A model generated the notes under the pieces. The model was not told where the DNA came from, searched no databases, and was given only the letters and a program-made list of their open reading frames with translations. A DNA stretch of 64,000 bases, taken from the NCBI RefSeq assembly GCF_002812805.1, contig NZ_NMUM01000044.1, positions 124,001 through 188,000 on the forward strand, written 5' to 3'. The DNA comes from Microbacterium lacus (GTDB taxonomy: Bacteria > Actinomycetota > Actinomycetes > Actinomycetales > Microbacteriaceae). The first letter of the stretch is position 1; every line of letters begins with the position of its first letter. Made by a program: the position numbers and the translations under genes. This document shows, one piece after another, positions 22,401 through 44,940 of the stretch.

Positions 22401-22453
22401 GCACTCCTCCCGAGTTGCTCCTCCGGCTGATCGAGCAGAATCCCGGGGGCTAG
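19448..22453 (+). CDS. large leucine-rich-repeat-variant (LRV/HEAT-like) repeat protein
   Basis: About 1,001 residues from ATG at 19448 (other candidates: 19355, 19487). The protein is built of roughly 25-residue repeats around the theme GNPSTPAATLxRLA ... VRxAVA, for example NPSTPEATLERLANSRDEHV and NPSTPAAALGNIL. This is the variant leucine-rich repeat solenoid (LRV), an alpha-helical superhelix used for protein binding. No catalytic domain, signal peptide or membrane segment is evident. It diverges from the RES gene and converges on the GTPase operon; it is a likely scaffold or sensor in a conflict system, function unproven. Confidence 0.75.
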   Translation: MPYVSGVDESDAVMFGRSAAQDPQTRPARLARLARSGNPELRALVACNASTPPSALAALAGDSVLGIVATVAGNPSTPEATLERLANSRDEHVRAAALGNPSTPAAALGNILSSRGATLAEKVAAAGNPSTPAATLSRLTWHDAPQEIKLAVARNARASAETLSGLFSWHDREKAKMRAIARALAENPATPTSTRAYLYEQEDLRAIVVATTPVEPIAKRISQVRSSGYVSSATFELLAKDKDQAVRRAVAIAPGTKEAVLEQLANDSAEGVAGVARARLAKDSAEIRRLAQKEDPVLLEAIARNPRTPPELMPELVLAILDTAGEDLLRDYAKEASTPADVLRRLAEHTSASVRFAVASRSAAPSDVLKILALDSAPNIRAAAASIQGMPVSSLVNLVADPDNTVRKAVAGNVSMPPELLMRLAVDDVADVVAAVAANASATGPVLTKIVNDQLARRAGRPARPAYSTERDTFSLEPLISAGANSNTPDEALTVLVNSVAGVVARSSSPRDERRLAEEARVWAAVARNDKASPDVLEAVARRAHRELWMKGDPDRVPRDLEGSRERILSDIVDNSGSGVGTLEFLSDGEWVARRTTTRSERDDGHTITWTIWDGSATAAAKADMARKVRREISRRSWLREGSQADRIGFATNPDASPEILDELANDPADAVRRAVAANRSTPAAAFARLAADTERLVRIAAAGSSHPDAAIREHERSGYTREPREVAYRDGFESLAQDVDPEVRTAVASNTGAFWVALSEPARSRMAFDEHPSVRAAVLTSISELDHVFGGLEISTAALQHMIKTGGPETWRTLAARYGELPIAILEQLASKGDVATTLLVAKDYYAKGDLLVRLAGSNDAAVVDAVASRLRFGDDRGDDEAVRKALIRNPHAPELFLRQVAYGGTKDQEMIDLAIKHPNFPESMLIGFAEGTDQQRIMAAASSRNPKVVAAVAANEHASLEALSYVAAHGGAEAREALLVNKSTPPELLLRLIEQNPGG

Positions 22454-25899: not shown

Positions 25900-25915
25900 T
25901 GGCTTCTCTTCTTGC

Positions 25916-28852: not shown

Positions 28853-29997
28853 CAGTTGCCTCCGAAGATCTCCGCGATGAGAGCACTGCGTACTCGCGAA
28901 AGCTCGGTGGCTTCGCTAATGGCCTGGTCTCGTGCCGTGTTCAGCGCTAGGACTTTCTGCGCCGCCGCCTTCTGGCTCTCGCGCGACAGATTTGGGAACG
29001 GCTCAGTGACAACAAGAGCCTTCGAGAGATTCTTTTGGGCAGCGCCCGCACCTTTGCTACGAAGCTCAGCCTGCCTCGACCGCAACCAGTAGTAGAGGAA
29101 GTCCGGATCCGCCATCGACTCGTCAGGCACAAGTGCCAAGACAGCCTGGTTCGTACACATGGGCGTCCCCAAGCGGCCTACTTGCCCGCGAGTCTTGCCG
29201 TCCCCATACATCGCGACCACAATCGAACCGGATGGCGCTAGCCAGGTTGCGGAACGCGCAAGGCCAGCGTCGCTGATGGACTCTTCCGTCGCAGTGATGT
29301 CGTCACCAATGACCTCCCCGGATTTCAACCACGGAATTCCGCCGCCGTAAAAGCTCTTGTTGGCCCGCAACGGGGTCGCACCACTTCGCGCAATAGTCAC
29401 CACATCGTCCACCGTGACGAATGATTCGGCATCCACGGCCATGAGCGGGGCTTGCGACTCGGTCAAAGCAACGTCTACTGCCCCGAGTGCATTCTTGTGA
29501 CGCTCGATCGCCCAGATAACGTCAGCGATCGGCTTCTGCTCGGGGAATGGTGGAAGGACGAACTCCTGGGTCTTGAGCTGCCCCCAATTGACTGTAGGCG
29601 AAAGAGATCCCACGGAGATCTCGATAGCTCGGTCTAGGAAGTAGTCGCTGGCCACGAAGACAGGGAGGAACGAGGGATCGATGAGACCAGGGCGCGCGCG
29701 CAAGACAAGTGCGTGTGCCGAGCAGATGCCTTCGAAATCCGCACGAGCGACCTTCTTCTGATAGGCCCGCCGCCGGCCGAAGATGACGTCCTCGGGTTTG
29801 AACCGCAGCTTCTGTGCTTCAACCTTGTCCGGCCTGTCCCAACGCTGAACTGTCAGGACGCCGGGGTCGAGGTGCTCGAGACCGACGTAGCGGTCGACGC
29901 CAGCCATGGATGGGTCATCGACGCGATCGGTGATGCTGTCGATAACGTCGCCGAAGGCGACGCGCTTCCAGGTGGACTTGTCGAGGTTCAGTCTCAT
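28852..29997 (-). CDS. hsdS: type I restriction-modification specificity subunit S
   Basis: 381 residues, ATGA overlap with the upstream hsdM. Two target-recognition domains: the first from residue 1 to about 150, ending in the conserved VLPPFPEQKPIADVI region, and the second from about 205 (SGATPLRANKSFYGGGIPWL) to the end, with YYWLRSRQAEL and a central/terminal helical linker. The first TRD begins VAFGDVIDSITDRV. It defines the bipartite DNA target of the RM complex. Confidence 0.92.
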   Translation of the reverse strand: MRLNLDKSTWKRVAFGDVIDSITDRVDDPSMAGVDRYVGLEHLDPGVLTVQRWDRPDKVEAQKLRFKPEDVIFGRRRAYQKKVARADFEGICSAHALVLRARPGLIDPSFLPVFVASDYFLDRAIEISVGSLSPTVNWGQLKTQEFVLPPFPEQKPIADVIWAIERHKNALGAVDVALTESQAPLMAVDAESFVTVDDVVTIARSGATPLRANKSFYGGGIPWLKSGEVIGDDITATEESISDAGLARSATWLAPSGSIVVAMYGDGKTRGQVGRLGTPMCTNQAVLALVPDESMADPDFLYYWLRSRQAELRSKGAGAAQKNLSKALVVTEPFPNLSRESQKAAAQKVLALNTARDQAISEATELSRVRSALIAEIFGGN

Positions 29998-31487
29998 TCG
30001 GTCGCCTCCGAGCGAAGAAGGGCGATCGCGGCCACGATCGCGTCCTCCGAGGCATCCGCTATCTGACGCCAGCCAGCGAGTGCATCGACGCTGCCGATCT
30101 GCTCGCTCGCGTCAACCGCCTTCGCGCTGGCGACGTACAGCGGGATCGCGAGGCTGTATCCCTTGTCGGAGATCTGGCCGAGGGTCGCGACGGCGGCGAA
30201 CCGAGGCGCGTCGGAAAAGTCGTGATATGCGTCGAGGATCTTCGTCTGGTGCGAGTCGCGCAAGAACGACTGCGCCTGTTCGCGCGCGACCTCGTTGATG
30301 GCGTTGATGAACAGCACCTTGCCGCGGTGCTCGGCGGGTTTGGTGGCGCGGAGTGTGATGACGACAGCCTCCATCGGCGAGTTATAGAAGAGCCCCGCAC
30401 CCAGTCCGAGCACGCACTCGATAAGATCGGACTTCACCAGCGCTTCGCGCAGCGCGGCCTCTTCTCGACGGAATAGAACGCCATGCGGAAAAAGGATGGC
30501 CGCGCGTCCAGTCCTAGGATCGAGACTCTTGGCAATGTGCTGGAAGAAGGCGTAGTCGGCGCGTCCTTGTGGTGGCACGCCCCACATGTTGCGACCGTAT
30601 GGGTCCTTTGCGAAGGCATCCTTGTTCCAGGCTTTGATCGAGTACGGCGGGTTGGCGAGCACCACGTCGAAGGTCTGCAGCCCACCCTTGTTGTCCAGGA
30701 ACGAGGGCCGAGCGAGGGTGTCGCCATGTGCGATGTGTCCGTCGGCGATGCCGTGCAGGAAGAGGTTCATTCGGGCGATGGCCGAGGTTCCGTGGTTGAG
30801 CTCCTGGCCGTAAAGCCGAAGGTTGCGCCACTCCTTGCCCTGCCGCTTCACTTCGGCGGCGGTGGAGATGAGCATGCCGCCAGTGCCGCAGGTCGGGTCG
30901 TACACTGATTCGCCCGGCTGTGGTTCGAGCATGAGGGTCATCAGGCGTACGAGAGTGCGGTTCGTGTAGAACTCCTGAGCGGTGTGACCGGAGTCGTCCG
31001 CGAACTTCTTGATGAGGTACTCGTAGCCATTGCCGAGTTCATCTTCGGGCAGGTTCGCGATCGACAGTGTTTGCGTCGACAAGTGCTCAATGAGGTCGGC
31101 CAGCGTGGAGTCTGGCAGCAGGTTCTTGTTGCCCCAGTCGCCGTCCCCGAACACGCCCGGCAGGGTGTCGGGGTTGGCGGACTCAATGGCGCGCATCGCC
31201 CGCAGAACAGTCGCGCCGATGTTCTCGGTCACTGTACGTACGTCAGTCCAGCGGCATCCATTCGGAATCGCGAAGCGGTGATTCTCAGGAAGGTCGGCGA
31301 GCTCTTCGTCGCTGTACGTATGGACTGCGGCTGCGTGTTCCTCGTCGTAGACGTCCGAAATGCGTTTGAGAAAGACGAGCGGAAAGATGTACTGCTTGTA
31401 GTCTCCGGCATCGATAAGTCCGCGCAGGATGACCGCAGCGCCCCAGAGATAATTCTCCAGCTCGCGTTGGCTGATCTGGCCGGTCAC
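29994..31487 (-). CDS. hsdM: type I RM methyltransferase subunit M (copy A)
   Basis: 497 residues from GTG at 31487, a GTGA overlap with the upstream hsdM copy; a GTG at 31502 would add 5 residues. HsdM N-terminal helical domain, SAM motif YDPTCGTGGML near residue 197 and catalytic NPPYSIKAW near 277. N6-adenine methylase. The intact NPPY shows it should be active. The locus has a second full-length hsdM directly upstream, which is unusual. Confidence 0.93.
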   Translation of the reverse strand: MTGQISQRELENYLWGAAVILRGLIDAGDYKQYIFPLVFLKRISDVYDEEHAAAVHTYSDEELADLPENHRFAIPNGCRWTDVRTVTENIGATVLRAMRAIESANPDTLPGVFGDGDWGNKNLLPDSTLADLIEHLSTQTLSIANLPEDELGNGYEYLIKKFADDSGHTAQEFYTNRTLVRLMTLMLEPQPGESVYDPTCGTGGMLISTAAEVKRQGKEWRNLRLYGQELNHGTSAIARMNLFLHGIADGHIAHGDTLARPSFLDNKGGLQTFDVVLANPPYSIKAWNKDAFAKDPYGRNMWGVPPQGRADYAFFQHIAKSLDPRTGRAAILFPHGVLFRREEAALREALVKSDLIECVLGLGAGLFYNSPMEAVVITLRATKPAEHRGKVLFINAINEVAREQAQSFLRDSHQTKILDAYHDFSDAPRFAAVATLGQISDKGYSLAIPLYVASAKAVDASEQIGSVDALAGWRQIADASEDAIVAAIALLRSEATE

Positions 31488-32983
31488 GCGCTCAACCCCC
31501 ACTTTGCAAGCTCTGCTTCCAACGCTGCCCGAGTTTCCTTCGCACGCTCATGCGCGGCTTCGAGGTTCGACAGCGCGTCGGCAAGTGTGGCCTGCTCTCC
31601 CGTGTCGGTGGGAGCGACGTACAGCGGAATGTTGAGATTGAATGCGTTTCTCTCGATGTCGGCGAGATCGGCGACGTGCGCGCGGCCCTTGAGGTCGGCG
31701 AACCCGCGGTAGGCGTCAAACAGCTTGGTCGCGTGTTCGGTTTCGAGGGTGTTCTGGTTGCGACCCTTCTTCATCAGGTCCTCGCCGTTGATGAACAGCA
31801 CCTTGTCTTGTTGATCGGCCGGCCGCTGATGGCGCAGGATCAGGACGCAGGCCGCGAGACCGGTGCCGTAGAACAGGTTGGGCGCCAGGCCGATCACGGC
31901 TTCCACCTTCTTGGCCTTCAGGATGTGTGTGCGGATGCGTGCTTCCGCGCCTTGCCGGAACAGGGCACCCTGCGGGAGCACAACCGCGACGCGGCCGGTC
32001 TTTGGGTCGGCCGAAGTGAGCATGTGCTGCACCCACGCCCAGTCCGCGTAGCCCTTCGGCGGCACTCCGCCGAGCTGGTTGCGACCCCACCGATCGGAGG
32101 CCCACTCGACATCGCCCCAGGCCTTGAGTGAGAACGGTGGGTTCGCGAGAACGTTGTCGAATCGCGCGAGATGGTTGCCCGTGTAGAACGCGGGGTTGCG
32201 AAGCGTATCCTCACGGACGACCTTGAAATCCTCGATGCCGTGCAGCAGCAGATTCATGCGTGCGATCGCCGACGTCGCGAGCACCTTCTCCTGGCCGTAA
32301 AGCTTCCCCCAGAGAGTCTTTGGTCTGCCGCCGGTAGCCTTCACGTGCTCGATGACCTCGATGAGCATGCCGCCCGTCCCGCACGCTGGGTCGTAAACGC
32401 TCTCGCCCTCTTGCGGGTTGAGGATGTTCACGAGCAGGCTGACCACCGAGCGTGGGGTGTAGTATTCGCCGGCTTTCTTGTTCGATTGGTCGGCGAACCG
32501 CTTGATGAGGTATTCGTACGCGTTGCCGAACACATCGGGGGCAACGTTCGCGTTGCCCAACGTCTTCGTCGCGAAGAGCTCGATGAGGTCGGCGAGCTTA
32601 CGGTCAGGCAGCTTGTCTTTATTCGTCCAGTTGGCGTTGCCGAAGATGCCATAGAGCGTCTCGGGGTTCGCCTTCTCTATTTCGCGGAACGCAGTCTGCA
32701 AAGCGGTGCCAATGTTCTCGGTCTTCTTGCGGACGTCGGACCACAGATTGCCATCAGGGATCGCGAAGCGGTGATTCTCTGTGAACGCGGCGAACTCATG
32801 ATCGCCACCCGATTCATCGAGCGCCTGCTCGAACTCCTCGAGGTAGACGTCACTGATTCGCTTGAAGAACATCAGCGGGAAAATGTAGGCCTTGAAATCA
32901 GCCTGGTCGATGCTGCCGCGGAGAAGGTCAGCGGCCTTCGCAAGATACTGCTCCAGCTCGGGAAGCGTGAGCTGTGCAGTCAT
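31484..32983 (-). CDS. hsdM: type I RM methyltransferase subunit M (copy B)
   Basis: 499 residues, ATGA overlap with the upstream fusion gene. SAM motif DPACGTGGMLIEVI near residue 194 and catalytic NPPFSLKAWG near 281. Full HsdM length with the C-terminal helical tail (NLEAAHERAKETRAALEAEL). Similar architecture to copy A but clearly diverged, so not a recent duplication. It could pair with copy A in one heteromeric complex or serve the single TRD of the fusion protein. Confidence 0.93.
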   Translation of the reverse strand: MTAQLTLPELEQYLAKAADLLRGSIDQADFKAYIFPLMFFKRISDVYLEEFEQALDESGGDHEFAAFTENHRFAIPDGNLWSDVRKKTENIGTALQTAFREIEKANPETLYGIFGNANWTNKDKLPDRKLADLIELFATKTLGNANVAPDVFGNAYEYLIKRFADQSNKKAGEYYTPRSVVSLLVNILNPQEGESVYDPACGTGGMLIEVIEHVKATGGRPKTLWGKLYGQEKVLATSAIARMNLLLHGIEDFKVVREDTLRNPAFYTGNHLARFDNVLANPPFSLKAWGDVEWASDRWGRNQLGGVPPKGYADWAWVQHMLTSADPKTGRVAVVLPQGALFRQGAEARIRTHILKAKKVEAVIGLAPNLFYGTGLAACVLILRHQRPADQQDKVLFINGEDLMKKGRNQNTLETEHATKLFDAYRGFADLKGRAHVADLADIERNAFNLNIPLYVAPTDTGEQATLADALSNLEAAHERAKETRAALEAELAKWGLSA

Positions 32984-34941
32984 CTAGGAAGTCCATCGGT
33001 CGGGGTCGTGGTCAAGCTGATTCCGTGCCGCACAGCCGTGAGCATGGTCCCCGCCAGGCTATCGGCGGCCTTCGCCGCTTCCATTGCCAGATCTCTGCCG
33101 CGTCGTGCCTCGCTCACTGCGACGTGAATCGCGCGCTGCTCTTGAAGCGACGGAACCGGCACCTCGATCTCGCGCACCGGGATCCGGGGGATGCTGGCGC
33201 CGGAAGCGAGGCGCAGGTTCCACTCGCCAGTAAGTGCGTCAGCCAGATAGTGCGGATCGAGCTTCGTGGGGTCGGCGACACGGATGCGATAGACGCTTCC
33301 CACCGGGAGGTGCCCGCCCTCTTCATCGACCATTGCCTGGATGTCGTGCATGGCCGTGAGCAGTACATCGCCAGGGGCAGTGAGCTCGCGCGCTTGGACG
33401 CGGTTGAGGTGGCTGACGGAGGGCAGCTCGCGCCTTCGAACTGCGGCCGCGTCGACATGACGGCCGTCGAGTTCGGCTGCATCCGCTTCTCTCAGCGGCC
33501 GTGCGGACGCCGTTTCGATCGCGCCGGCTTCAACAAGTTCGGCCACCGTGAGGACCGGCGGCGTACCAGACAGCGCGGGAGCCGCCACAGCCCGCGAGAT
33601 TTCGCTGAGCGCTGCGGACGCGCGGCGCATGTCCTGACGGGTGTGTTCGAACTCTCGCTCGACTTCGACTTCGTCGACTTCTTCGGACAGCATCCATCGG
33701 CCAGGGCTGAGGTCTGCGTCGCCAGCAGTGAGCTCTTCGACCGAAACTCGCATGTGGGGGACCTTCGCGAGGGCTTCGTCGCCACTCAACCAGTCCGCCA
33801 CCTCGTTCTCCGGCGCATCGACGGACGACGCATCGATCAGCAACACCTCGGTTCTCGTCACCGCACGTGTCTTGCCAAGCACCCAAAGCGCCAGAGGGAT
33901 CGAAGTGTGGGGCAGCATCTTTCCAGGTAGGCCGACGACCGCATGGACCCACCCGCCGAGAAGGAGATTGCGCCTGATTTCAGCTTCGGCGCCGCGGCGG
34001 AAGAGCATGCCGGGGGAGGTCAGCACGTAGCCGACGCCGTCGTCGGCGAGATGCGCCACGACGTGCTGAAGCCAGAAGGCGTCACCGCTTGAGCGTGGAG
34101 GAATCCCGAATCGCAGCCGTGGGTCGATCATCGTCGTCGTTGGATCGATGCGCAGGCCGAAGGGAGGTTCGGCAATCACGACGTCGGCTCGAAGCTCCGG
34201 GTCCGGGTCGTGGTGGAGAACGTCAGCGATCCGGAGATCAAAGTTGACACCACGCAGAATCGCTCGGCCTCGCGCGATCTCAGCTGCCGCAGTATTGATT
34301 TCGTCGCCCACGATGCGGTTTGGGCGGGCGCCCATCTCGACGGCCTCCAACAAAGCGACGCCAATGCCGCATGCGGGGTCGTAGAGCGTGCCACCGCGAA
34401 GGCCTGACGCAAGCGAGGCCAGAAGAGAACTGGTGCGCGAGCCGACGAACCCGGTTTCGCCTGCGGACCTTCCCAAAGATCGGGACGTCCGCTCGAGGAC
34501 GCGATCGATCACGTCTGCGAGCTCAGCGCGCGGGATGTCGGCGAGCACTTCTCGCAGCTGGTCGACTGATGCTTGCTGGATGCCGCTCCCCACATAGGAG
34601 GGCCGCTCCTTCACGAGGTCGACCGCCGTCTGGACAAAGATCTCGCCCATGGCGTGAACTGATGTGTGCCCGCGGAAAAGGTTAGCGACGCCCCACAGTT
34701 GCGCTTCCCATTGCTTCGCGGCTGAATTCACGATCGACTCGACCCGCCTCTTGTCCGGATGAGCCGCGAGCCAGCTCTCAACCTCGGATGCGCTGAAGAG
34801 TGGCTTGTTCGCTGTGCCACCTGCAGGCTGGGGAAAGTCAGTCATGCGCTTGCGCCAGTTGCTCACTGCTGCGCGGGAGACACCAGCGAGGTCTGCAATG
34901 TCGCTCGGCGCGAGGAGACCCCCGACGGGTTGCGGGGTCAT
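32980..34941 (-). CDS. HTH - N6-methylase-like - specificity-domain fusion with altered catalytic motif
   Basis: 653 residues. Residues 10-55 form a HTH (APSDIADLAGVSRAAVSNWR). An HsdM-like domain follows with SAM motif YDPACGIGVAL near 182, but the catalytic tetrapeptide reads EPPF (residues about 259-262) instead of NPPF/NPPY. Residues about 450-640 form one HsdS-type TRD with the conserved VPSLQEQRAIHVAV end. ATGA overlaps on both sides. The Asn-to-Glu change suggests impaired methyl transfer or a regulatory/DNA-binding role. M-S fusions exist in type I/IIG systems; this combination with HTH and two HsdM is unusual. Confidence 0.85.
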   Translation of the reverse strand: MTPQPVGGLLAPSDIADLAGVSRAAVSNWRKRMTDFPQPAGGTANKPLFSASEVESWLAAHPDKRRVESIVNSAAKQWEAQLWGVANLFRGHTSVHAMGEIFVQTAVDLVKERPSYVGSGIQQASVDQLREVLADIPRAELADVIDRVLERTSRSLGRSAGETGFVGSRTSSLLASLASGLRGGTLYDPACGIGVALLEAVEMGARPNRIVGDEINTAAAEIARGRAILRGVNFDLRIADVLHHDPDPELRADVVIAEPPFGLRIDPTTTMIDPRLRFGIPPRSSGDAFWLQHVVAHLADDGVGYVLTSPGMLFRRGAEAEIRRNLLLGGWVHAVVGLPGKMLPHTSIPLALWVLGKTRAVTRTEVLLIDASSVDAPENEVADWLSGDEALAKVPHMRVSVEELTAGDADLSPGRWMLSEEVDEVEVEREFEHTRQDMRRASAALSEISRAVAAPALSGTPPVLTVAELVEAGAIETASARPLREADAAELDGRHVDAAAVRRRELPSVSHLNRVQARELTAPGDVLLTAMHDIQAMVDEEGGHLPVGSVYRIRVADPTKLDPHYLADALTGEWNLRLASGASIPRIPVREIEVPVPSLQEQRAIHVAVSEARRGRDLAMEAAKAADSLAGTMLTAVRHGISLTTTPTDGLPR

Positions 34942-35411
34942 GCTGCCTCCATGATTGCGTTCGGGTCGTAGTCGATGTCGAGCACGCGCTTCGCGGCCAT
35001 GCGAAGTCTCCGAGAGCAGGATTCAGTGCGCGATGCGACCGAGACGTCGGCGTGAAGCCCCAAGCGCGAGACGACCTCCGCAAAGATGCCATCGCCCGAG
35101 ACGAGCACGATCTCAGCGAACCGGTCTCCGACCCTTTCGGTCTCCAGAATGTCGAGGAGCTCGAGGTCTGCGCCGTTCATGCCAGCACGAAACACGAGGC
35201 GGCGGGGTCCCCGCCACTCAAAGCCGACGACGTCAATACTGAACCGGCCGCATGCAATCACCACTTGGTCGTCGTTGCGCGGGACGACCGCCGCCGCGAT
35301 TGCCGCCTGTGCTGCCTGAACCTGTTCGGGCATTAATACTCCACCTCCCACGATGTTCTCGATGTCGATAAGGACAATGCGACGACCGAACGCCGGCTTT
35401 CGTGTGTACAT
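34938..35411 (-). CDS. NYN-domain (PIN-like) ribonuclease, first gene of the RM operon
   Basis: 157 residues from ATG at 35411. NYN acidic residues are visible: D in VLIDIENI (residues 13-20), D in GADLELLDIL (about 85) and D in LVSGDGIFAEVV (about 107). NYN proteins are metal-dependent RNases of the PIN superfamily. It overlaps the fusion gene by 4 nt and so is coupled to the RM operon. A TATAAT hexamer on the minus strand (35,410-35,415) overlaps the start codon; if it is a real -10, translation must begin further in, but no standard start codon follows before the first motif. Confidence 0.78.
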   Translation of the reverse strand: MYTRKPAFGRRIVLIDIENIVGGGVLMPEQVQAAQAAIAAAVVPRNDDQVVIACGRFSIDVVGFEWRGPRRLVFRAGMNGADLELLDILETERVGDRFAEIVLVSGDGIFAEVVSRLGLHADVSVASRTESCSRRLRMAAKRVLDIDYDPNAIMEAA

Positions 35412-35430
35412 TATAGCTGCCAATCTGTTT

Positions 35431-35532
35431 GTGAATCCGATTCCCACCTCCGGGTTGATTCACTGTAACGCAGATCTGATCGCCACGCAAGTGAACCCAA
35501 TTCACAGCCTTTGTGAATCACGGGTGGTTCAC
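35431..35532. promoter_or_regulatory. array of GTGAA/TTCAC half-sites upstream of the RM operon
   Basis: Six GTGAAYC-type half-sites lie in about 100 nt: 35,431, 35,457 (inverted), 35,491, 35,499 (inverted), 35,513 and 35,526 (inverted). The third and fourth form the palindrome GTGAACCCAATTCAC. They precede the NYN start, so the seven-gene operon may be controlled through them. The binding protein is unknown; the HTH of the fusion methylase is a candidate. Confidence 0.5.
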
Positions 35533-35885: not shown

Positions 35886-36968
35886 CTAGTTCCAAGCTCG
35901 CAGTGCATCCGTGACGGTCGGGGCCCCTCGAACCAGCGACGTTCGCCAATTCAGCAATCCCTTGTGCTGAAGGTGGCCGATGACCATCAATGGGTGAACG
36001 TCAAGGCTGTCCGCGACAGAGTCAACCCAGGCTTCACCAATCCGCGCTGGCGCAGCGGGAAGACCGTCTCCAAATGACCAGCGGGCAGCAAGGGAGTTGG
36101 CGGCGTCCTCGACGTTGGTCTCAGGCCCGTTATCGGCGTCCGTCTCATCAACGATCGGCGCCGATCCCACGTGCCCGAGTAGGACGTGCGCCGCCTCATG
36201 CAGAAGCGTAAAGAAGACCTTGTCTAGCCGTTTGCCGCGCCCGGTGAGTCCGATGACAGGGGCCCCATCAACAACGAACGCGCATCCGTCCAACTTGCTC
36301 GTCGGGAACGTGTCGATATGAACGAGCTTCACTCCCGCGCCGGCGAACTGGATGGGCAGACTTTCAAAGTCTCGGGGGGACTTGATTCGCTGCGGCAAGT
36401 TAGATGCCAGTTCGCGAAACGAGGTCTCGCTGTAGACCCCAGCGGATTGCCTCTCTGCCTTATCGCGAACACTGACAAACCAAGCCTCCTGCAACTGAGT
36501 CATGGGCTCAGTCGCGTTTGACCGCCGAGCGGCAAGCGCGAACTCCGGGCGCTCGTCGAGGGATGAGATCTTGTACAACCGCAGGATGTCTTGTTCCTGG
36601 CGCTGGGGGTCGGTCGGGTGGACCAGCCCGCGCTGCGCGAGGAGCGAGATCGGGAAGTTTGCGCGAAGGCTGGCCCTCCTGCGCACGGACTCGAGACGCG
36701 CAGCCGACTCAGAGTCCGAGCGTTGCTGTGCAAGGTAATAGCCGTCCTGCAACTGCAACCAGTATTCGGGCGACGTTCCAAACGCGGCACCGATCTGCGC
36801 TGCTGATTCCCTCGTGATCTCCTTCTTGCCGTTGATGATCTCGGACACGAACTGGACGGGGCGCCCAAGTATCCCTGCGAACTCCGCCTGGCTCCAACCG
36901 CGACTGTTCAGCTCGCCGAGAAGGTGCTCGCCAGCGTGAGCAATGTCCTCAACGCGAAACTCATGCAT
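35886..36968 (-). CDS. higA: HigA-like antitoxin fused to an ImmA/IrrE metallopeptidase
   Basis: 360 residues. N-terminal HigA-type HTH: ELNSRGWSQAEFAGILGR and SEIINGKKEITRESAAQIG, then SPEYWLQLQ. The C-terminal half contains HEAAHVLLGH (about 253-262), the zinc HExxH site of ImmA/IrrE (COG2856) peptidases, with further acidic residues downstream. Such fusions are stand-alone or HigB-partnered antitoxins and regulators that cleave repressors on stress. Overlaps the upstream small gene by 8 nt. Confidence 0.88.
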   Translation of the reverse strand: MHEFRVEDIAHAGEHLLGELNSRGWSQAEFAGILGRPVQFVSEIINGKKEITRESAAQIGAAFGTSPEYWLQLQDGYYLAQQRSDSESAARLESVRRRASLRANFPISLLAQRGLVHPTDPQRQEQDILRLYKISSLDERPEFALAARRSNATEPMTQLQEAWFVSVRDKAERQSAGVYSETSFRELASNLPQRIKSPRDFESLPIQFAGAGVKLVHIDTFPTSKLDGCAFVVDGAPVIGLTGRGKRLDKVFFTLLHEAAHVLLGHVGSAPIVDETDADNGPETNVEDAANSLAARWSFGDGLPAAPARIGEAWVDSVADSLDVHPLMVIGHLQHKGLLNWRTSLVRGAPTVTDALRAWN

Positions 36969-37269
36969 TCCGATCTCCTATCGGCGTCGCGGGTGCTATC
37001 CCTCGGATGAACACTGTCGGCGGGGCATCATGTGAGAACTCGATCTGAAGCCGGTATCCGCCGGTCACCCGCACGGTGCCTCCATCCTCACTGGCCGGCA
37101 CGAAGTTCATCGACGCTAGAGCCAGGATGTCATCAGCCGTCACTGCGGCTGCTAGGCCCTGAAGGCGCATCATCAGCGTGCGGTGCAAGCCAACGTCCCA
37201 TGGGTACGCGTGATCTGTGCGCCGCTCGCAGAACGCGCGCACCAGATCGTCAGTGAACTCGATGCGCAA
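36961..37269 (-). CDS. higB: HigB/RelE-like toxin candidate
   Basis: 102 residues, ATG at 37269, placed directly before the HigA-like gene with an 8-nt overlap, the usual HigB-HigA order. RelE/HigB-like pattern: RAFCERRTDHAYPWDV near the N-terminus, LRLQGLAAAV-type helix and YRLQIEF ... PPTVFIRGIA at the C-terminus. HigB cuts mRNA in the ribosome. Family assignment rests on order, size and the RLQIEF core; the catalytic residues are not clear. Confidence 0.68.
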   Translation of the reverse strand: MRIEFTDDLVRAFCERRTDHAYPWDVGLHRTLMMRLQGLAAAVTADDILALASMNFVPASEDGGTVRVTGGYRLQIEFSHDAPPTVFIRGIAPATPIGDRNA

Positions 37270-37407: not shown

Positions 37408-38208
37408 ATGCAGTACACGGCACGGTCCTTCGGAGACACGGTCCTGGAGCACTTCGGGGAGCGGCGGCGCCTTTCGAAGGGGCAGGTCTTCGCCCACGAA
37501 GCGATGGAGACGCGAAGCGGCACCGCACTGGGGCACCCCGACTTCGAAGATCTGGCGATTGGCCAGAAGCGTACGACCTCCATGACTGCGATGTTCATCG
37601 ACCTCCGCGACTTCACGGGACGCACGTTCTGGGACCCGCAGGACGAAGTGGCCGATCTCGCAGACGCAGTGCTTGCCGGCTTCGTCGAGACCGTTCTTCG
37701 TCATGGTGGATATCCGCTCGGCCTGCGCGGCGACGGACTCTTCGCGGGCTTCGGACCGGGTGATCCGCGGGTCGGCGCGTCGTGCGCGCTGGCTGCCAGC
37801 GCCTTCGCGCTCAACGCGGTGAAGGAGAACGTGAACCCGCGCCTCGAGCAGATGGGTGTGGCGCGCGTTCAGGCGCGCGCCGGCTTGGACTTCGGGCAGA
37901 TCACCTTCGTGCGCACCGGCTCGGTCGGACATAGCGAGATCAACCCGGTTGGGTTCGCGGCAAACTTCGCTTCGAAATGCGAGAAGAAGGCGCTGTCGTG
38001 GGAAATCGTAACCGGGGAGAACCTGGCGGGTTTGTTTCCCGACGCTACCCAGTTCACGAAGCTCGACCCGCCGAAGACGTACACACGAGATCACGTCACG
38101 AAGAGCTATCACTTCTACGACTACCGGTGGACGGGAACCCTGGCGCACTCGGAGTCGCTAGTCCACGAGCTCGCCGGCAACTCGGTGTCGTCCGTGACCG
38201 TCGGCTAA
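37408..38208 (+). CDS. pycC: Pycsar nucleotidyl cyclase (cCMP/cUMP synthase)
   Basis: 266 residues, ATG with GAGG 5 nt upstream. Class III cyclase core with metal-binding D in MFIDLRDFTGRTFWD (about 54), second metal D in RGDGLFAGFG (about 111) and the Pycsar-type GSVGHSEINPVGFAANFASK. Pycsar cyclases respond to phage by making cCMP or cUMP, which activates a membrane or TIR effector. Here the effector PycTM lies two genes downstream with an E2-like protein between. Base specificity cannot be told from the sequence. Confidence 0.88.
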   Translation: MQYTARSFGDTVLEHFGERRRLSKGQVFAHEAMETRSGTALGHPDFEDLAIGQKRTTSMTAMFIDLRDFTGRTFWDPQDEVADLADAVLAGFVETVLRHGGYPLGLRGDGLFAGFGPGDPRVGASCALAASAFALNAVKENVNPRLEQMGVARVQARAGLDFGQITFVRTGSVGHSEINPVGFAANFASKCEKKALSWEIVTGENLAGLFPDATQFTKLDPPKTYTRDHVTKSYHFYDYRWTGTLAHSESLVHELAGNSVSSVTVG

Positions 38209-38218
38209 GGAGGCCAAC

Positions 38219-38830
38219 ATGTCAATCGCATCCCTTCTCAGCCACCACGGAGTTGAAGTCCCGCGATACGTCACCGTCGACGGGCGGATCGTCTTCGATG
38301 GCGTTCACGTCTCAGATGCTGGCGTCGCCGTGCATGACCGTCTCGGCCCCGTCACCCCGGTACAGAAGCACACCTTTCACGGCGGTGCAGATGCTGGCCA
38401 GATCAATACGCCGAACGCCTGGTGGGACGACAGTGCGCAGGTCAGGCTTCATCGCGACGCGATGGATCGCTCGTTTCCCGGGTTCGAGTACAACGAGGGG
38501 AACGCGAGTCACGGACCACGCTGGACCGGCCAGATCGACACCGGCCGCGGACGATTCACGCTCCAGGTTGAGTTGCGTGCGGATCAGGGACTCCCAGCGC
38601 TTCGGGTAATCGGCCCGAAGCTCGGCGCGTTCTCGTCGGGACGATGGGTGCCATCCCCGCACCTCTACCTCAGCGGCAACCTCTGCGTGGCGGATCGCAG
38701 CGAGTGGAACCCGGTGGTGCATGACGCCGCGACCGCCGTCGCATGGGGTGCCCATTGGCTGGCCGCATACACCGAGTGGCGCATGAGTCGTCGCTGGCCG
38801 ATCGATGGAGTTCAGGTAGATGCGGCGTAA
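38219..38830 (+). CDS. E2-like (ubiquitin-conjugating fold) protein in a Pycsar operon
   Basis: 203 residues, AAGGAGG site 6 nt upstream. C-terminal half has the prokaryotic E2 signature: SPHLYLSGNLCVADRSEW with candidate catalytic Cys156, followed by a helix and WLAAYTEW. This pattern is familiar from the E2 proteins of short type II CBASS operons, where the E2 acts on the cyclase. An N-terminal beta-rich region precedes it. No E1 or JAB gene is nearby. Placement between cyclase and effector implies control of the cyclase; the activity is inferred. Confidence 0.72.
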   Translation: MSIASLLSHHGVEVPRYVTVDGRIVFDGVHVSDAGVAVHDRLGPVTPVQKHTFHGGADAGQINTPNAWWDDSAQVRLHRDAMDRSFPGFEYNEGNASHGPRWTGQIDTGRGRFTLQVELRADQGLPALRVIGPKLGAFSSGRWVPSPHLYLSGNLCVADRSEWNPVVHDAATAVAWGAHWLAAYTEWRMSRRWPIDGVQVDAA

Positions 38831-39362
38831 GGGCCGTCAGGTGTCTGCATCACCGCCTGACTGGGAGCAGAGCAAGCTCGCGATCCAGGAGACGGGAGGT
38901 TGGATCAAGAACGCGGACGCGAAGGCGACGATCCTTGCAGGATCCTTTGGCCTCAGCCTGACCTTCGCAGTCCCTCGACTGCTGGAGTCGGTGCCGGATG
39001 TGATGGCCGTTCCGTTCGCGTTCGGGATCTGGACGGTGTTCGCCATCGCCTTTCTGCTCTCCGCGTCAATCACAGGGTTTAGCCTCGTCCGAGCGCTCAT
39101 TCCACGGATGTCCTCGGATCCGAACTCGCCCAACAGGTTCGCTTGGCCGAGCCTGGCGCAGGCATCCGTCGGCGGACTCGCGCCCGTGGTAGCGACAGAC
39201 GACCAAGTTCGACAAGAAGCCTGGGCGCAGGCAGCATCGCTTGCGCGAGTCGCAGTGACAAAGTTCCGCTACTTCAAGATCGCGCTCATCAGCTTCTGCA
39301 TCTGCCTCGGGTCGCTGGTCGCGCTTCTCATGACCCAATCGGCTGCCACGGTTCTCGGCTGA
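38820..39362 (+). CDS. pycTM: Pycsar effector PycTM (membrane protein)
   Basis: 180 residues, ATG overlapping the E2 stop by 11 nt (a GTG at 38841 is also possible). Typical PycTM N-terminus: ETGGWIKNADAKATILAGSF. Three hydrophobic segments are visible, at about residues 38-60, 67-92 and 148-172. In Pycsar, cyclic pyrimidine binding leads this protein to damage the inner membrane and stop growth. It closes the three-gene operon. Confidence 0.85.
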   Translation: MRRKGRQVSASPPDWEQSKLAIQETGGWIKNADAKATILAGSFGLSLTFAVPRLLESVPDVMAVPFAFGIWTVFAIAFLLSASITGFSLVRALIPRMSSDPNSPNRFAWPSLAQASVGGLAPVVATDDQVRQEAWAQAASLARVAVTKFRYFKIALISFCICLGSLVALLMTQSAATVLG

Positions 39363-40000: not shown

Positions 40001-40212
40001 CCGATTCGGGCCCCAACTCGTTGGCCGTTCTCGGCGCCTTCCGCTGCTCGAAGCACGGCACGACTGTGCTCGCGGTTGAGCCTCGGATTACCTACGCATA
40101 GTGCGGGGTGAGCTACTGCGCCGTCGACCGTTCTCGTAGCGCCGATGTTAGCGTCCGGGACCGCCGCTACAGTAAAGCTTCATGGGGTCTGCCCGACAGG
40201 TTGGGGTGGGAA

Positions 40213-40737
40213 ATGGGCAAGGGAAGTTCGGCGCGCTGGTCGCGTCCGGCCACGGGCCGACAGATCGCGGCGCTGAGGGCGCACGGCAACTATGACGGCA
40301 AGTACTACTCAATGGGGAGGGCGAGCCAAGCTATAAGTCGCTCTTCGTCGAGCGGATCATTGAGCCAGGGTGGTTCCGGAAGCTCGTCCTACCCGACCAG
40401 GTTCTCGGCTTCGTACTCGCCGGCGTCGTTCCTGTCCCAGCTCTTGGGAGTCCCTGACGATCTCCAGTCGATTCTCCAAACTGCTATGGAGCAGAGTTCC
40501 GCTCCGGTGGGCACGGACGGCAACGACGCGGTCCGGGCCGTAACGTTCGACGTTGCGCCGGATGAGTCTGACCAGAACACCCCACGGATCGTGTTCGAAG
40601 CCGAAGTGATCCGTAGCCGCACCTACACGGGAGACCCGGAGCTGAGGGTTCGTTTCCTCAGCAACGTCACCTTTGGGGGCGAGGCGCCCGTTGCCGTGCG
40701 GCCTTCCTTCCAGAGCGGTGTTCAGTTCAATGAGTAG
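40213..40737 (+). CDS. uncharacterised serine-rich protein coupled to the PIN-kinase gene
   Basis: 174 residues from ATG at 40213 (GGTGGGAA upstream). Starts MGKGSSARWSRPATGRQIAA, followed by a Ser/Gly-rich linker (about 45-65) and an acidic-to-basic C-terminal half. No family recognised. It overlaps the kinase start by 8 nt, so it belongs to the kinase-vWA-phosphatase operon. The 212 nt before it (40,001-40,212) hold a possible promoter (TACAGT near 40,170) and nothing else clear. Confidence 0.6.
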   Translation: MGKGSSARWSRPATGRQIAALRAHGNYDGKYYSMGRASQAISRSSSSGSLSQGGSGSSSYPTRFSASYSPASFLSQLLGVPDDLQSILQTAMEQSSAPVGTDGNDAVRAVTFDVAPDESDQNTPRIVFEAEVIRSRTYTGDPELRVRFLSNVTFGGEAPVAVRPSFQSGVQFNE

Positions 40738-43465
40738 CACTACCGAAGAACTGCTCACGTTCGATCCAGCAGACTTGGTGGGCCCAGATTCCAGGCTGTT
40801 CATTGACACGAATGTCTTTATGGACACCGACCGCACGCGAAAAGGTGGACTCCAGCAGCTTTTCCTGCGCATCGACGAAAAGGTTCGATCTGGAGGAAGC
40901 CCGATCGTCGTGCCTACCAAAGTGATGGCGGAGCTAACCAAGCAGAGTAAGGCGGATCCGTCGGGTGAAGACGAAGGGCGGATCGAGGCGATCAAGAAGG
41001 CCGCGAACGCACTGAACTTTCTCGAAGCCGCGACTCAACGAGGTCTCGTTCGGACGAACCTCGGCGACGGTTCGAATCCCTACGCGGACGACCTGTTCGT
41101 TGATCTGTTTGAGGCATACGCAGGCAAGTACGCGATGGCGCTGCTCACGAACGACATCACCCTTTCATTGAGGGTCAACGCGCTGGGCGTCCGGCTTGAC
41201 GAGTGGATCGTTGCGGGGCGGCTGACAGCTGAAGGCATGATCGAGTGCTCACCGCCCCAGCAGCTCTACGAGCGAGGACTCGCGAAGTTTCGCCGGATTC
41301 AGAAGCGCATCGCGGACGGTCGGGAGAACGCGAAGGATCACCTCGAAGTCGCCAGCCTCGAGCTAGCGCTCGGCGAGTTCGCGGAGTTCTTCGGGGTCAG
41401 CGACTTGGCGAGTGCGCCGCAAGCGACTGGAGCGGATCGCCCGCGCGCAATAGGCGCACCGAGCCTGGCCCCATTCTCCTCGACCGCGACCTTCGTAGGC
41501 CCGGACGAGGTGCTCGCCGTGAAGGACGTCCCCGGCGAAGGTGATGAGGTCGTCCTCACGGCACCCGGGGAGAGTACGGTCTTTCGCCTTGGTGAGAAGC
41601 TTGGAGAGGGCGGTGAAGGCAGCGTCTACGCGGTAACAGATACCGCCGTCGTGAAGGTCTTCGACGCGGGAAACATCACCACACATCGTCGAGCGAAGAT
41701 CGAACTCATGGTCTCCCGGGGCCTAACCGCAGACGGTATCTGCTTCCCACACGCAGTCGTCAACAACACACATGGGGAGTTCGTCGGTTACGCGATGCCA
41801 CGAGCCTCCGGTCGGGAGTTCTCCAAGGCCCTCTTCAACCCCCGACGATTCAGGGCAGATTTTCCAACGTGGACCAAGGCGGATCTCGTGGACGTGGCGA
41901 TCGAATTTCTCGAGAAGGTCGCCTACCTCCATTCGATGAACATCGTTCTTGGTGACATCAACCCGAAGAACCTACAGGTCGACGCCAACAAGAAGATCTG
42001 GATCATCGACGCTGACTCGTGGCAGATCGAGGGCTTTCCCTGCCCCGTCGGAACCGACATGTTCAGCGCTCCAGAAGTGATTGGGCAGCGCTACCCCGAC
42101 TTCCTACGAACGCTTGAGCACGAGAATTTCGCCATTGCGACCATGGCCTTCATGATCCTGATCACTGGGCAGTTCCCATATGCCCGCTCCGGATCAGACG
42201 GCGACATCATCAGACTGATCAAGGAAGGCAACTTCGCTTTCCAGTACAAGGAATACTCCAACCAGGATCAGCCCGCTGGCAACTGGAAGTACATGTGGAG
42301 CCATATCGAGCCGACGGTGAAGGGACTGTTCTGGAACACCTTCCACCGCGAAGGCAGCCGGTATGGCACCCGACCTACCGCCGCCGAGTGGCTTGAGGCT
42401 TTCCGCAACTACCAGCGTTGGCTTCGAAGTCCGGAGAACTTCGACCCGATGTCGAGTGACGTCTATCCGAGTCGCTTCAAAGCGATGGCGCGAACGACCC
42501 CCATCTACGACTGCGCCGAATGTGGCAAATCAATGGCCGGTATTTACAGCGCAGAGACGGGCACGTACGCGACTCCAAAGCTCTGCAACGAATGCCGCGC
42601 GAGACTTCCCAGGTGCATCGACTGCGGCAAGCCGAAGTCCTCCCTCAGAGACGGAGTGTGCTGGGGCTGCAATCGAAAGCGCAACTTCGCTCACTGCTCG
42701 CAGTGCGGCCAGGAGAAGCCGAAGTCGTCCCTGATCGATGGTCGGTGCTACGACTGCAATCAGGGTGAGTGCGGTGACTGTGGACGACCCATGCCGAAGC
42801 GGTACCTCACAGATGGGCTGTGCGAGCGATGCGCGCCGGTCGCCTGCAAGGATTGCGGCCGGCGCTTCAAGAAGTCCTCTCTGACGTATGGCCGATGCGC
42901 GGATTGCCACCGGATGGATGTGGAGCGAGCTGCACGTGCGAAAGAAGCGGCGGCGGCGAAGGCGAAGCATGACGCCGAACTGGATCCCGAACGACTTTGT
43001 ACGAGGTGCGGCAAACCCTTCATTAGCCGTGGGAATGTCGCGTGGCACCAGCGCCTCGGGAAGTCGGTCCCGACAACCCACAAGCAGGGTTACGGATACA
43101 CGTATCCTCCCGAATGCGTCGCGTTGCCCGCGTCGACCACGAAGGGAACGATCGCGACCTCGGGCTCCACTTCCACAGAGCCGCTCGATGAGAAGAAGTC
43201 GGGAGGGTGCTACGTTGCGACCGCCGTCTACGGCTCATACGACTGCGGACCCGTCTGGGTCCTCCGACGGTGGCGGGACTCGGCACTCGCTTCGTCCGCT
43301 TCGGGGCGCGCGGTCATTCGCACCTATTACCTTCTGAGTCCGAGGCTCGTCGCGGCGTTGGGAACACGGCGCGCGTTTACGGTCCCGGCGAAAGCAGTCT
43401 TGGACAGACTCGTGGGTCGTCTGCAGCGGAGTGGGTACTCCGACGCTCCGTACACGGACAACTGA
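40730..43465 (+). CDS. PIN nuclease - protein kinase - zinc-ribbon - CFI-box fusion
   Basis: 911 residues, ATG at 40730. Residues 20-175 form a PIN domain with its acidic set: FIDTNVFMD, VMAELTKQ, ADDLFVDL and LLTNDITL. A kinase follows (about 280-580): glycine loop LGEKLGEGGEGSVYAV, catalytic GDINPKNL in place of HRD, and IDADSWQ in place of DFG. About 594-730 hold five or more CxxC zinc ribbons (CAECGKS, CIDCGKP, CSQCGQE, CGDCGRP, CKDCGRR). The tail has CYVATAVYGSYDC, the CFI-box. TerY-P kinases usually carry kinase plus zinc ribbons; the PIN head is an addition that suggests phosphorylation-controlled RNA cleavage. Confidence 0.85.
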   Translation: MSSTTEELLTFDPADLVGPDSRLFIDTNVFMDTDRTRKGGLQQLFLRIDEKVRSGGSPIVVPTKVMAELTKQSKADPSGEDEGRIEAIKKAANALNFLEAATQRGLVRTNLGDGSNPYADDLFVDLFEAYAGKYAMALLTNDITLSLRVNALGVRLDEWIVAGRLTAEGMIECSPPQQLYERGLAKFRRIQKRIADGRENAKDHLEVASLELALGEFAEFFGVSDLASAPQATGADRPRAIGAPSLAPFSSTATFVGPDEVLAVKDVPGEGDEVVLTAPGESTVFRLGEKLGEGGEGSVYAVTDTAVVKVFDAGNITTHRRAKIELMVSRGLTADGICFPHAVVNNTHGEFVGYAMPRASGREFSKALFNPRRFRADFPTWTKADLVDVAIEFLEKVAYLHSMNIVLGDINPKNLQVDANKKIWIIDADSWQIEGFPCPVGTDMFSAPEVIGQRYPDFLRTLEHENFAIATMAFMILITGQFPYARSGSDGDIIRLIKEGNFAFQYKEYSNQDQPAGNWKYMWSHIEPTVKGLFWNTFHREGSRYGTRPTAAEWLEAFRNYQRWLRSPENFDPMSSDVYPSRFKAMARTTPIYDCAECGKSMAGIYSAETGTYATPKLCNECRARLPRCIDCGKPKSSLRDGVCWGCNRKRNFAHCSQCGQEKPKSSLIDGRCYDCNQGECGDCGRPMPKRYLTDGLCERCAPVACKDCGRRFKKSSLTYGRCADCHRMDVERAARAKEAAAAKAKHDAELDPERLCTRCGKPFISRGNVAWHQRLGKSVPTTHKQGYGYTYPPECVALPASTTKGTIATSGSTSTEPLDEKKSGGCYVATAVYGSYDCGPVWVLRRWRDSALASSASGRAVIRTYYLLSPRLVAALGTRRAFTVPAKAVLDRLVGRLQRSGYSDAPYTDN

Positions 43466-43499
43466 ATCCCTACCGGCCGACAACCAGAATGGAGCATCC

Positions 43500-44186
43500 A
43501 TGGCGAAGCTTGAGATCGAGACAGATGATCTGATTGAGAACCCGACCCCGAGAGTGCCCGTTGTCCTTTGCATCGACACGAGTGGTTCAATGGCAGGCGC
43601 TCCCATTCTCGAACTCGTCGACGGGGTGAACCAGTTCTACGACGCCATCAACGATGATGACGATGCGCATGACGCTGCGGAAGTTGCGATCGTCGAGTTC
43701 AATTCGGGCTCGAAGTTGATCCAGGAGTTCGCCAGTGTGGACCGAGTCCAGCGGATCAGTTCCATTCAGGCGACCGGCGGCACGTCGATGGGTGAAGGGG
43801 TGAACCTCGCGCTCGATACCCTCGATGCGCGCAAGAGGGTCTACTCAGACAACGGTGTTCTCTATTACCAGCCTTGGCTTGTCCTCATGACAGACGGCGC
43901 GCCGAATGGCAGCGCGGCAGAGCTCGAGCGGGCAGTGCAGCGTGTGACAGAGCTGATCGGAAACAAGAAGCTCACGATATTTCCAATCGGGATCGGATCG
44001 AACGCCGACATGAACGTTCTGGCTCGCTTCAGCCCGACCAAGCCTCCCCTGCGTCTCCAGGGGCTGAGCTTCAAAGAGTTCTTCGAGTGGCTATCGAAAT
44101 CGGTGTCCCGAGTGTCGCAGTCGAGTCCCGGAGCAGCGGCGCCGAAGCTCGACCTTGAGGGCCTCGCTGGGTGGGCGGAACTCTAG
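43500..44186 (+). CDS. TerY-like vWA domain protein
   Basis: 228 residues from ATG at 43500 with GGAG 6 nt upstream. MIDAS metal site DTSGSM at about residues 24-29, then T in GGTSMGEGV and D in LMTDGAPNG, so a metal-binding vWA fold is complete. It follows the kinase and precedes a PP2C gene: the kinase-vWA-phosphatase triad (TerY-P) known from tellurite-resistance and conflict clusters. Probably an adaptor or substrate in the phospho-signal. Confidence 0.88.
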   Translation: MAKLEIETDDLIENPTPRVPVVLCIDTSGSMAGAPILELVDGVNQFYDAINDDDDAHDAAEVAIVEFNSGSKLIQEFASVDRVQRISSIQATGGTSMGEGVNLALDTLDARKRVYSDNGVLYYQPWLVLMTDGAPNGSAAELERAVQRVTELIGNKKLTIFPIGIGSNADMNVLARFSPTKPPLRLQGLSFKEFFEWLSKSVSRVSQSSPGAAAPKLDLEGLAGWAEL

Positions 44187-44187
44187 A

Positions 44188-44940
44188 TTGTTCCGTGAGT
44201 TCCATCATCAGGTTCGCGGGCGCGGCCATGCCGCTGAAGGCACGCCGTGCCAAGACCGGACGGCGTACCTCACACGCGCCGGCGTCCAGGTAGCGTGCCT
44301 TGCGGATGGGGCTGGATCGGCCGCTCGGTCTGAGCATGGAGCGCACGCGGTTGTGCGCGAAGGCTGCAGGTTGCTCGCGGAACGCTTCCACGAGTTCGAC
44401 TCCCGAGACGATGGCGCACAGATCAAACGCGAGATCATCGACGAACTACGCCAACAACTCCACAAGACCGCAAGGCGGCAGAGATGCGAGGTTCGGGATC
44501 TCGCCTCAACCTTCCTCGCGGTAGCAGTGAGCGGCGATCGGTTCATCGCTGTGCACGTGGGTGATGGCGTCATTGGGTACTTGAAGGCCGGAGCACTGAA
44601 GGTCGTCTCCGCACCCGACAACGTGGGGATAGCAAACCAGACCACCTTCGTGACCTCCGAGGCCGCAGTCGCGTCGATGAGGCTGCTCCGAGGATCGGCG
44701 ACCGACGTATCGGGCTTCATATTAATGAGCGACGGAGCTGAGACCAGCCTCTACAACCAGAAGACACAGCAGCTCGCGACCGCGTGTCGGAAGATCATCA
44801 ACTTGCTCGGCGCAGGCGGCGCGCTTTCCGTTCCGGTATCGAGACTCCAGATTCGGCGCTTGCTGGGTGGGGTTCTCAGGAACGGGACAAAGGATGACTG
44901 CGGCCTTGCCGTGCTGGCTCGTGAGTTGCGCGCGGCCTGA
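44188..44940 (+). CDS. PP2C-type serine/threonine phosphatase of the triad
   Basis: 250 residues; TTG at 44188 lies 1 nt after the vWA stop (a TTG at 44155 would overlap it). PP2C motifs: CQDRTAYL, LADGAGSAARSEHGA, STFLAVAVSGDRFIAVHVGDG, ILMSDGAE and KDDCGLAVL. The start RGHAAEGTPCQD is the shape seen in TerY-P phosphatases. It would reverse the kinase activity and keep the PIN domain in check. Confidence 0.85.
   Translation: MFREFHHQVRGRGHAAEGTPCQDRTAYLTRAGVQVACLADGAGSAARSEHGAHAVVREGCRLLAERFHEFDSRDDGAQIKREIIDELRQQLHKTARRQRCEVRDLASTFLAVAVSGDRFIAVHVGDGVIGYLKAGALKVVSAPDNVGIANQTTFVTSEAAVASMRLLRGSATDVSGFILMSDGAETSLYNQKTQQLATACRKIINLLGAGGALSVPVSRLQIRRLLGGVLRNGTKDDCGLAVLARELRAA

Follow-up and report, generated by a model that had tools for sequence, protein, structure and literature searches.

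Described kinase–vWA–phosphatase triads and the locus under study

The TerY-P triad consists of a TerY-like vWA protein, a PP2C phosphatase and a Ser/Thr kinase with a C-terminal zinc ribbon, and has been linked to the RNA-targeting CoCoNuT systems (PMC11090510; this and all other articles are cited from the parts that were consulted). The kinase YegI and the phosphatase PphC are summarized in PMC13232886, and the outputs of TerY-P and YegI-type triads are left open in the articles consulted. In P. aeruginosa, TerY-P is reported to protect cultures whether the phage dose is low or high, and most cells survive (PMC10889362). PIN has been described as an effector domain among the vWA-component proteins of vWA-MoxR ternary systems and, separately from that report, kinase–zinc-ribbon, PP2C and vWA genes were found to adjoin actinobacterial GAP1-N2 GTPase systems (PMC7159879). 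Here we analysed a four-gene operon in a 64,000-nucleotide stretch of Microbacterium lacus DNA (contig NZ_NMUM01000044.1, positions 124,001 to 188,000; hereafter the window, numbered from its first letter), in which a PIN domain is joined to the head of a TerY-P-type kinase and a small partner gene stands upstream. The features of this operon are as follows.

40213..40737, forward strand: small partner gene, 174 residues (open reading frame, ORF), with the conserved N-terminus WSRPATxRQIAALxAHxxYDxKYYSMGRASQ, then a Ser-rich middle, then two C-terminal tails
40654..40728, forward strand: double tail FLSNVTF ... FQSGVQF of the partner gene, common to helix-turn-helix (HTH) partners elsewhere
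40730..43465, forward strand: PIN–kinase–zinc-ribbon–CFI-box fusion, 911 residues
40772..41254, forward strand: PIN domain, residues 15-175 (AlphaFold2, SMG6-like fold; conserved D26, E68, D120, D142)
41585..42349, forward strand: Ser/Thr kinase domain, residues 286-540 (PF00069; K309, D409, N414, D427)
42512..43009, forward strand: zinc-ribbon stretch, residues 595-760 (motif count, 11 CxxC)
43208..43414, forward strand: CFI-box C-terminal domain (NF041770)
43500..44186, forward strand: vWA protein, 228 residues, with a DxSxS motif (PF00092)
44188..44940, forward strand: PP2C phosphatase, likely TTG start (PF13672)

A sequence-only reading of this stretch had proposed a 911-residue PIN–kinase–CFI-box protein followed by vWA and PP2C genes, and this layout was borne out by the ORF coordinates, Pfam and NF041770. 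The genes are tightly packed: the ATG of the fusion lies inside the end of the 174-residue gene with an 8-base overlap (ATGAGTAG), and the likely TTG start of the PP2C gene at 44188 stands two bases past the vWA stop codon. G+C content is reduced around the operon, at 60–64% in each of the twelve 2-kb steps between 22 and 46 kb, against 64–70% in 16 of the 20 steps outside. Both the fusion and the partner gene are present in one copy each in their own genome (3.49 Mb). Scanning for promoters and terminators at the operon gave no signal exceeding that of shuffled sequences, and a 9-base inverted repeat upstream of the partner gene (40136-40170) was unremarkable, none being found at two of three other loci tested.

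The PIN head and the kinase chain

When the whole fusion was scanned, the PIN domain appeared weakly (PIN_12, 9e-4; PIN_4, 0.0016; neither reaching its Pfam cut-off). The isolated 198-residue head exceeded the PIN_4 cut-off (23.8 bits versus 21.9), and PIN_4 was matched at E<=0.01 by 14 of the 16 aligned members, that of the window among them. An AlphaFold2 model of this head (predicted local distance difference test, pLDDT, 88.5; predicted template modelling score, pTM, 0.84) was then compared with solved structures: the top six Foldseek matches were all SMG6/EST1A PIN domains (E 3e-5 to 2e-4), and structural alignment with the SMG6 PIN gave a Z score of 10.8 and 3.2–3.3 Å over 130–132 residues. 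SMG6/EST1A, a PIN endoribonuclease, is therefore the nearest solved fold, differing in that it is a human protein with 23–24% identity across the aligned part. The residues D26, E68, D120 and D142 were identical in 16/16 fused PINs aligned, which come from three phyla, and those of L064, L065 and L068 (loci are denoted by L numbers), read by eye, agreed with the 16. The N-terminal PIN domain with all its acidic residues, as first read from the letters, thus stands, and we infer from the modelled fold and the retained catalytic residues that it is a metal-dependent endoribonuclease.

The sole PIN-like copy with a lost acid belongs to a separate protein, in Fusobacterium locus L046 (4328-5236, forward strand). 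There an Xre-type HTH is joined to the PIN-like domain, from which one acid is missing, and the gene precedes that of an intact PIN–kinase; this protein is possibly an antitoxin derived from a dead toxin.

The kinase domain of the window matched PF00069 at 2.7e-11, and K309, D409, N414 and D427 were identical in all 16 fusions aligned. Eleven CxxC motifs follow between residues 595 and 760, ahead of a CFI_box_CTERM domain (NF041770, 7e-17). The many zinc ribbons of the sequence-only reading found support in this motif count and none in profiles, as the window fusion reached the cut-off of no curated zinc-ribbon model; among relatives, zf_Tbcl exceeded its cut-off in L045 and was under it in L046. 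Of 17 fusion C-termini listed, 13 (L032-L042, L044 and L065) end in a W-rich peptide (like SLWERLAEWWKS) instead of the CFI box.

Comparison with the known triads

The two downstream proteins of the window matched the vWA domain (2e-11) and PP2C_2 (1.5e-44) in Pfam, and vWA and PP2C genes follow the kinase in 22/22 loci with sequence past the kinase. All three proteins have homologues in the E. coli YegL-PphC-YegI triad: the kinase is 29% identical to YegI over 311 residues (4e-29), the vWA protein 39% identical to YegL over 226 residues (9e-39) and the phosphatase 25% identical to PphC over 224 residues (9e-15). The E. coli triad differs in that neither a PIN gene nor an HTH partner was present among the 13 features listed there, and no PIN gene was among the nearby features listed for plasmid triads of Rhizobium, Sphingomonas and Cupriavidus. 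Gene order differs as well, being kinase–vWA–PP2C in the window and vWA–PP2C–kinase in E. coli and these three plasmid triads.

The operon has the features that define TerY-P, namely an adjacent TerY-like vWA gene, an adjacent PP2C gene and a kinase with eleven CxxC motifs C-terminal to it. What sets it apart is the PIN domain within the kinase chain (fused or directly beside it in relatives) and the tail-bearing partner gene. With PADLOC, the fusion gave weak matches to mad6, PD-T4-6, MkoA and typeIV_Cas8, the presence of TerY-P models in PADLOC 2.0.0 not being established; the phosphatase gave a weak match to PDC-M21C and the vWA protein none. CoCoNuT types II and III-A likewise couple a TerY-P triad with predicted RNA-targeting nucleases, but there the nuclease resides in a separate McrBC-related apparatus with coiled-coil and HEPN components (PMC11090510), whereas here it is a PIN domain in the kinase chain. 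McrB/McrC-like core genes are absent from the window operon, whose four genes match PIN, kinase, CFI box, vWA, PP2C or nothing. In the vWA-MoxR and GAP1-N2 systems, the consulted parts of PMC7159879 do not place PIN on the kinase of a kinase–vWA–PP2C triad. In addition, the Lysinibacillus plasmid locus L045 carries a fourth gene past PP2C (12084-12740, forward strand), with a weak DnaJ match under the cut-off.

The sequence-only reading had asked whether this exact fusion is a described defence system; no such description was found in the literature searched, and the consulted parts of PMC7159879, PMC11090510, PMC13232886, PMC10889362, PMC2701414 and PMC7824862 do not describe a PIN–kinase fusion, literature coverage being incomplete. 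RefSeq labels one relative 'PIN domain-containing protein' and another 'CFI-box-CTERM' protein; the fusion has thus not gone unseen by annotators.

The partner gene and its tail

The 174-residue gene, which had been suggested as a further part of the system, belongs to the operon. L031 and L064 each have an orthologue, 49% identical to it, immediately ahead of the fusion gene, and the three proteins share a strongly conserved N-terminal block, a Ser-rich middle (16 Ser among the 34 residues 42-75 in the window) and two tails. No HTH was found in this partner type: the window partner matched no Pfam family at E<=0.1, no HTH was detected by Pfam and no HTH partner was matched by blastp, a cryptic HTH being possible. 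It gave no match among plasmids and none that was confirmed among viral contigs.

An upstream partner with the C-terminal tail [SNQ]N[VI]xF was found at 16 of the 20 fused loci described below, L032, L040, L045 and L046 being the exceptions; at 13 of the 20 this partner is an HTH protein. Pfam HTH_17 was matched by all three of the fusion partners scanned (2.9e-12, 1.8e-11 and 4.1e-11). By ORF coordinates, the HTH gene overlaps the first start codon of the fusion in nine of the 13 loci and ends at most two bases before it in three; in L034, whose fusion front looks frameshifted, it lies 254 bases away. By eye, an S1-like stretch without a Pfam match was recognized in L034 (7477-7986, forward strand); its reading frame differs from that of the fusion following it, as a frameshift would produce.

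The tail was present in 16/16 upstream partners versus 0/9 HTH proteins from plasmid regions without a fusion, as scored with a pattern that was composed with knowledge of both sets, widened to Q for L035 and with the leading F omitted for L044 and L065. When the C-terminus of the window partner was shuffled, one tail arose in 0.8% of cases and two tails in 0/20000, figures that are not blind because the pattern was set post hoc. A chance match was rejected in view of the conserved position of the tail in both partner types and its doubling in all three partners of the window type.

Relatives of the HTH partners occur in 239 plasmid records. In ten such regions, picked non-randomly from the list, a PIN gene adjoins the HTH gene in eight (six downstream, one upstream and one divergent); one of the remaining two has a Doc-type toxin, and the other neither PIN nor a Doc toxin. 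An HTH gene beside a PIN gene is the arrangement of MerR-PIN toxin–antitoxin systems (PMC2701414), which the fused loci resemble in that, at 13 of 20, PIN is preceded by an HTH protein whose N-terminal part is small. They differ from these systems in that the putative toxin is a large PIN–kinase and that the window partner has no detectable HTH; further, the fusion PIN matches PIN_4, whereas the two stand-alone plasmid PINs scanned match PIN_3. The tail common to the small gene and to HTH proteins of a class encoded next to stand-alone PIN genes, which the sequence-only reading overlooked, makes the unit look like a toxin–antitoxin pair joined to a triad. The small partner gene may be the safety catch of the PIN nuclease, which it probably guards.

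Distribution of PIN–kinase loci

Searches for other PIN–kinase–zinc-ribbon fusions yielded 20 different fused loci from Actinomycetota, Bacillota and Fusobacteriota, one of which (L043) is cut off by the contig end, and three split loci (L069, L076 and L077) in which PIN is a gene of its own, immediately preceding that of the kinase. Ahead of the separate PIN gene, L076 (6883-7536, reverse strand) and L077 (3767-4543, forward strand) have a further gene of 217–258 residues. A pattern scan of genome contigs, in which 13 of 53 candidate stretches were confirmed, is biased to PIN-bearing loci because one of its two patterns was derived from PIN.

Whole-protein searches are less PIN-biased, and were made in class, family, order and phylum samples that overlap. 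The own genome excluded, a strong match was found in one of 394 genomes of the class sample (next best, E 6e-23), in two of 299 of the family sample (E<=1e-60), in four of 396 of the order sample (E<=1e-60; one of them split) and in two of 396 of the phylum sample (E<=1e-40). None of the 17 other genomes of the same genus listed in the order sample had a strong fusion match. PIN accompanies the kinase in all nine strong genome matches, fused in six and split in three. The three best matches in the plasmid collection were all fused and came from Paenarthrobacter, Lysinibacillus and a Fusobacterium record of 2.1 Mb that is labelled as plasmid; for the weaker kinase matches, PIN neighbours were looked at for three plasmid triads only. 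No fusion relative was confirmed in viral contigs, and phage records gave three weak partial matches and no fusion.

In a midpoint-rooted tree of 35 kinase domains, some of whose outside rows are very long-branched, a branch supported at 100/99 separated all 22 PIN-associated kinases from 13 others that include YegI and the kinases of the Rhizobium, Sphingomonas and Cupriavidus triads; six of 15 weaker actinobacterial kinases were omitted, their domain not being found by blastp. The window kinase grouped with L064 and L031 (95/89), the two loci of its partner type, and the named relatives nearest to it are Actinomycetota. L041, whose record is titled Stenotrophomonas maltophilia, clustered with Arthrobacter, and its label or contig may be wrong. 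These results indicate that the PIN–kinase link is genuine and widespread.

Some relatives carry additional domains ahead of PIN: two IF2_N domains in L036 (1.5e-17) and an S1 domain in L041 (4.3e-9) and L068 (1e-6). Scans of L034, L039 and L045 gave no IF2_N or S1 match, and the window fusion has no such extension. IF2_N and S1 are domains of translation proteins, and their presence suggests translated or ribosomal RNA as the target of PIN, as may also hold for the window.

Defence genes around the operon

The operon sits among defence genes. Upstream of it, the following were recognized.

25916-34941, reverse strand: type I restriction–modification (RM) cluster with two HsdM-like genes, HsdS, HsdR and a third methyltransferase-like gene (PADLOC)
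35886-37269, reverse strand: HTH-ImmA-type protein (PD-Lambda-2_B, 9.3e-25) and neighbouring small gene
37408-39362, forward strand: Pycsar-like cyclase, a 203-residue gene without Pfam match and a PycTM effector

Within the RM cluster, HsdR matched at 1.4e-121 and HsdS at 6.2e-97. The Pycsar-like pair matched PycC (2.7e-25) and PycTM (3.3e-14), the membrane effector also exceeding the cut-off of PF18967 PycTM. At other loci, defence genes were found in five of the seven scanned, seven of ten flanking proteins, chosen by eye without a random control, matching PADLOC families. Type I RM adjoins L043, TmtA is next to the operon in L034, Lamassu LmuA and LmuB are near L065, and a DUF262/Orf5-like protein is near L035; the UvrD-type helicase near L037, one of the five positive loci, is generic.

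Several further genes of the window were noted. The third methyltransferase-like gene of the RM cluster also matches specificity-subunit models. The small gene beside the HTH-ImmA protein looks RelE/HigB-like by eye, with no Pfam match, and may belong with that protein to a three-component toxin–antitoxin unit. A 169-residue ORF (34938-35447, reverse strand) resembles, by eye, an NYN/PIN-like nuclease, with IDIEN and VSGDG motifs. After HsdR lies a 583-residue ORF (24319-26070, reverse strand) for which neither Pfam (threshold 0.1) nor PADLOC (threshold 0.001) gave a match, and at 19355-22453 (forward strand) a 1032-residue protein with LRV and HEAT repeats.

Proposed working and alternative explanations

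We interpret the locus as a TerY-P-type kinase–vWA–phosphatase triad that contains its own ribonuclease effector, which the tail-bearing partner probably guards, and put the probability of this reading at about one half. In resting cells, PIN would be held off by the C-terminal tail of the partner, and the balance of kinase and PP2C would also restrain it. An infection or stress signal, sensed perhaps through the zinc ribbons and the vWA protein, would change the phosphorylation of PIN, the partner or both, and the PIN thus freed would cleave RNA, probably the mRNA or rRNA engaged in translation. The end effect would be growth arrest or destruction of phage RNA, after which PP2C could return the switch to rest. 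The recurrence of this combination across several bacterial groups suggests a switchable RNA-destroying defence. An abortive-infection system headed by a PIN–kinase had been read from the letters; the PIN–kinase link and the defence context stood, and abortive infection, though possible, is not implied because P. aeruginosa TerY-P protects with most cells surviving (PMC10889362, in the parts consulted).

Several observations weigh against this interpretation. Comparison of the fusion PINs with the stand-alone plasmid PINs by hhalign was not significant (probability 4%, E 0.01) and gives no support for a common toxin family. The fusion operons of L032 and L033 share 96.5% DNA identity; in L032 the PIN–kinase is intact, and of the HTH gene only the final 28 codons remain, with an altered tail and no start. 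L040 and L045 have no recognisable partner upstream of the fusion, and the three split loci have no tail within 1.5 kb upstream. Survival of the L032 fusion beside a decayed partner suggests that the kinase–phosphatase state alone quiets PIN, or that the partner is dispensable. The by-eye choice of the context proteins also counts here, as does the fact that three of the ten (at L033, L037 and L069) matched no PADLOC family. An AlphaFold2 model of the full-length fusion (pLDDT 62, pTM 0.33, with a poor kinase C-lobe) was set aside for low confidence.

A more far-reaching version, which we hold only tentatively, takes the operon as a distinct class of immunity that couples a ribonuclease effector, an antitoxin-like tail protein and a kinase–vWA–phosphatase switch, in which phosphorylation would time the release of a ribosome-directed PIN and the tail (F-x-S-N-V-T-F) would be kept while the antitoxin front is exchanged.

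The foremost rival, in our view unlikely, is a selfish addiction module, in which PIN and its partner would be a toxin–antitoxin pair stabilizing mobile elements, with kinase, vWA and phosphatase tuning release and defence being incidental. The L044 plasmid is typed as conjugative and that of L045, typed as non-mobilizable, has transfer genes alongside; L035 and L036, from different families, share the same large flanking proteins; and plasmid enrichment is reported for MerR-PIN units (PMC2701414). However, copies also lie on long contigs amid defence genes, the triad is retained in every one of the 22 loci, and L032, L040 and L045 keep PIN intact with the partner absent or decayed.

Ranked behind it, and likewise unlikely, is a housekeeping or stress regulator of RNA processing, an elaborated YegI-PphC-YegL pathway in which a kinase-controlled PIN trims given transcripts without toxicity or defence. 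Homology to the chromosomal E. coli triad agrees with this, as do the S1 and IF2_N domains of relatives, which fit a translation-linked role, and the persistence of PIN in L032 without an intact partner. Its sparse spread (1/394 in the class, 2/299 in the family, 4/396 in the order and 0/17 of the same-genus genomes listed) and the defence-gene neighbourhood argue against it. Finally, it is improbable that PIN is an RNA sensor or inactive docking domain with the kinase as effector, since its four acids are retained in 16/16 fused PINs of three phyla and an acid is lost only in the separate L046 protein, even if PIN stands at the N-terminus of a signalling protein in which it and the zinc ribbons could each bind nucleic acid.

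Implications

On the interpretation of a triad with a built-in ribonuclease, the probable output of the triad is covalently joined to the kinase, so that the question of what such triads control becomes directly testable. If true, the logic of toxin–antitoxin systems, in the form of a neutralizing tail, and eukaryotic-like phospho-signalling would be united in one compact operon.

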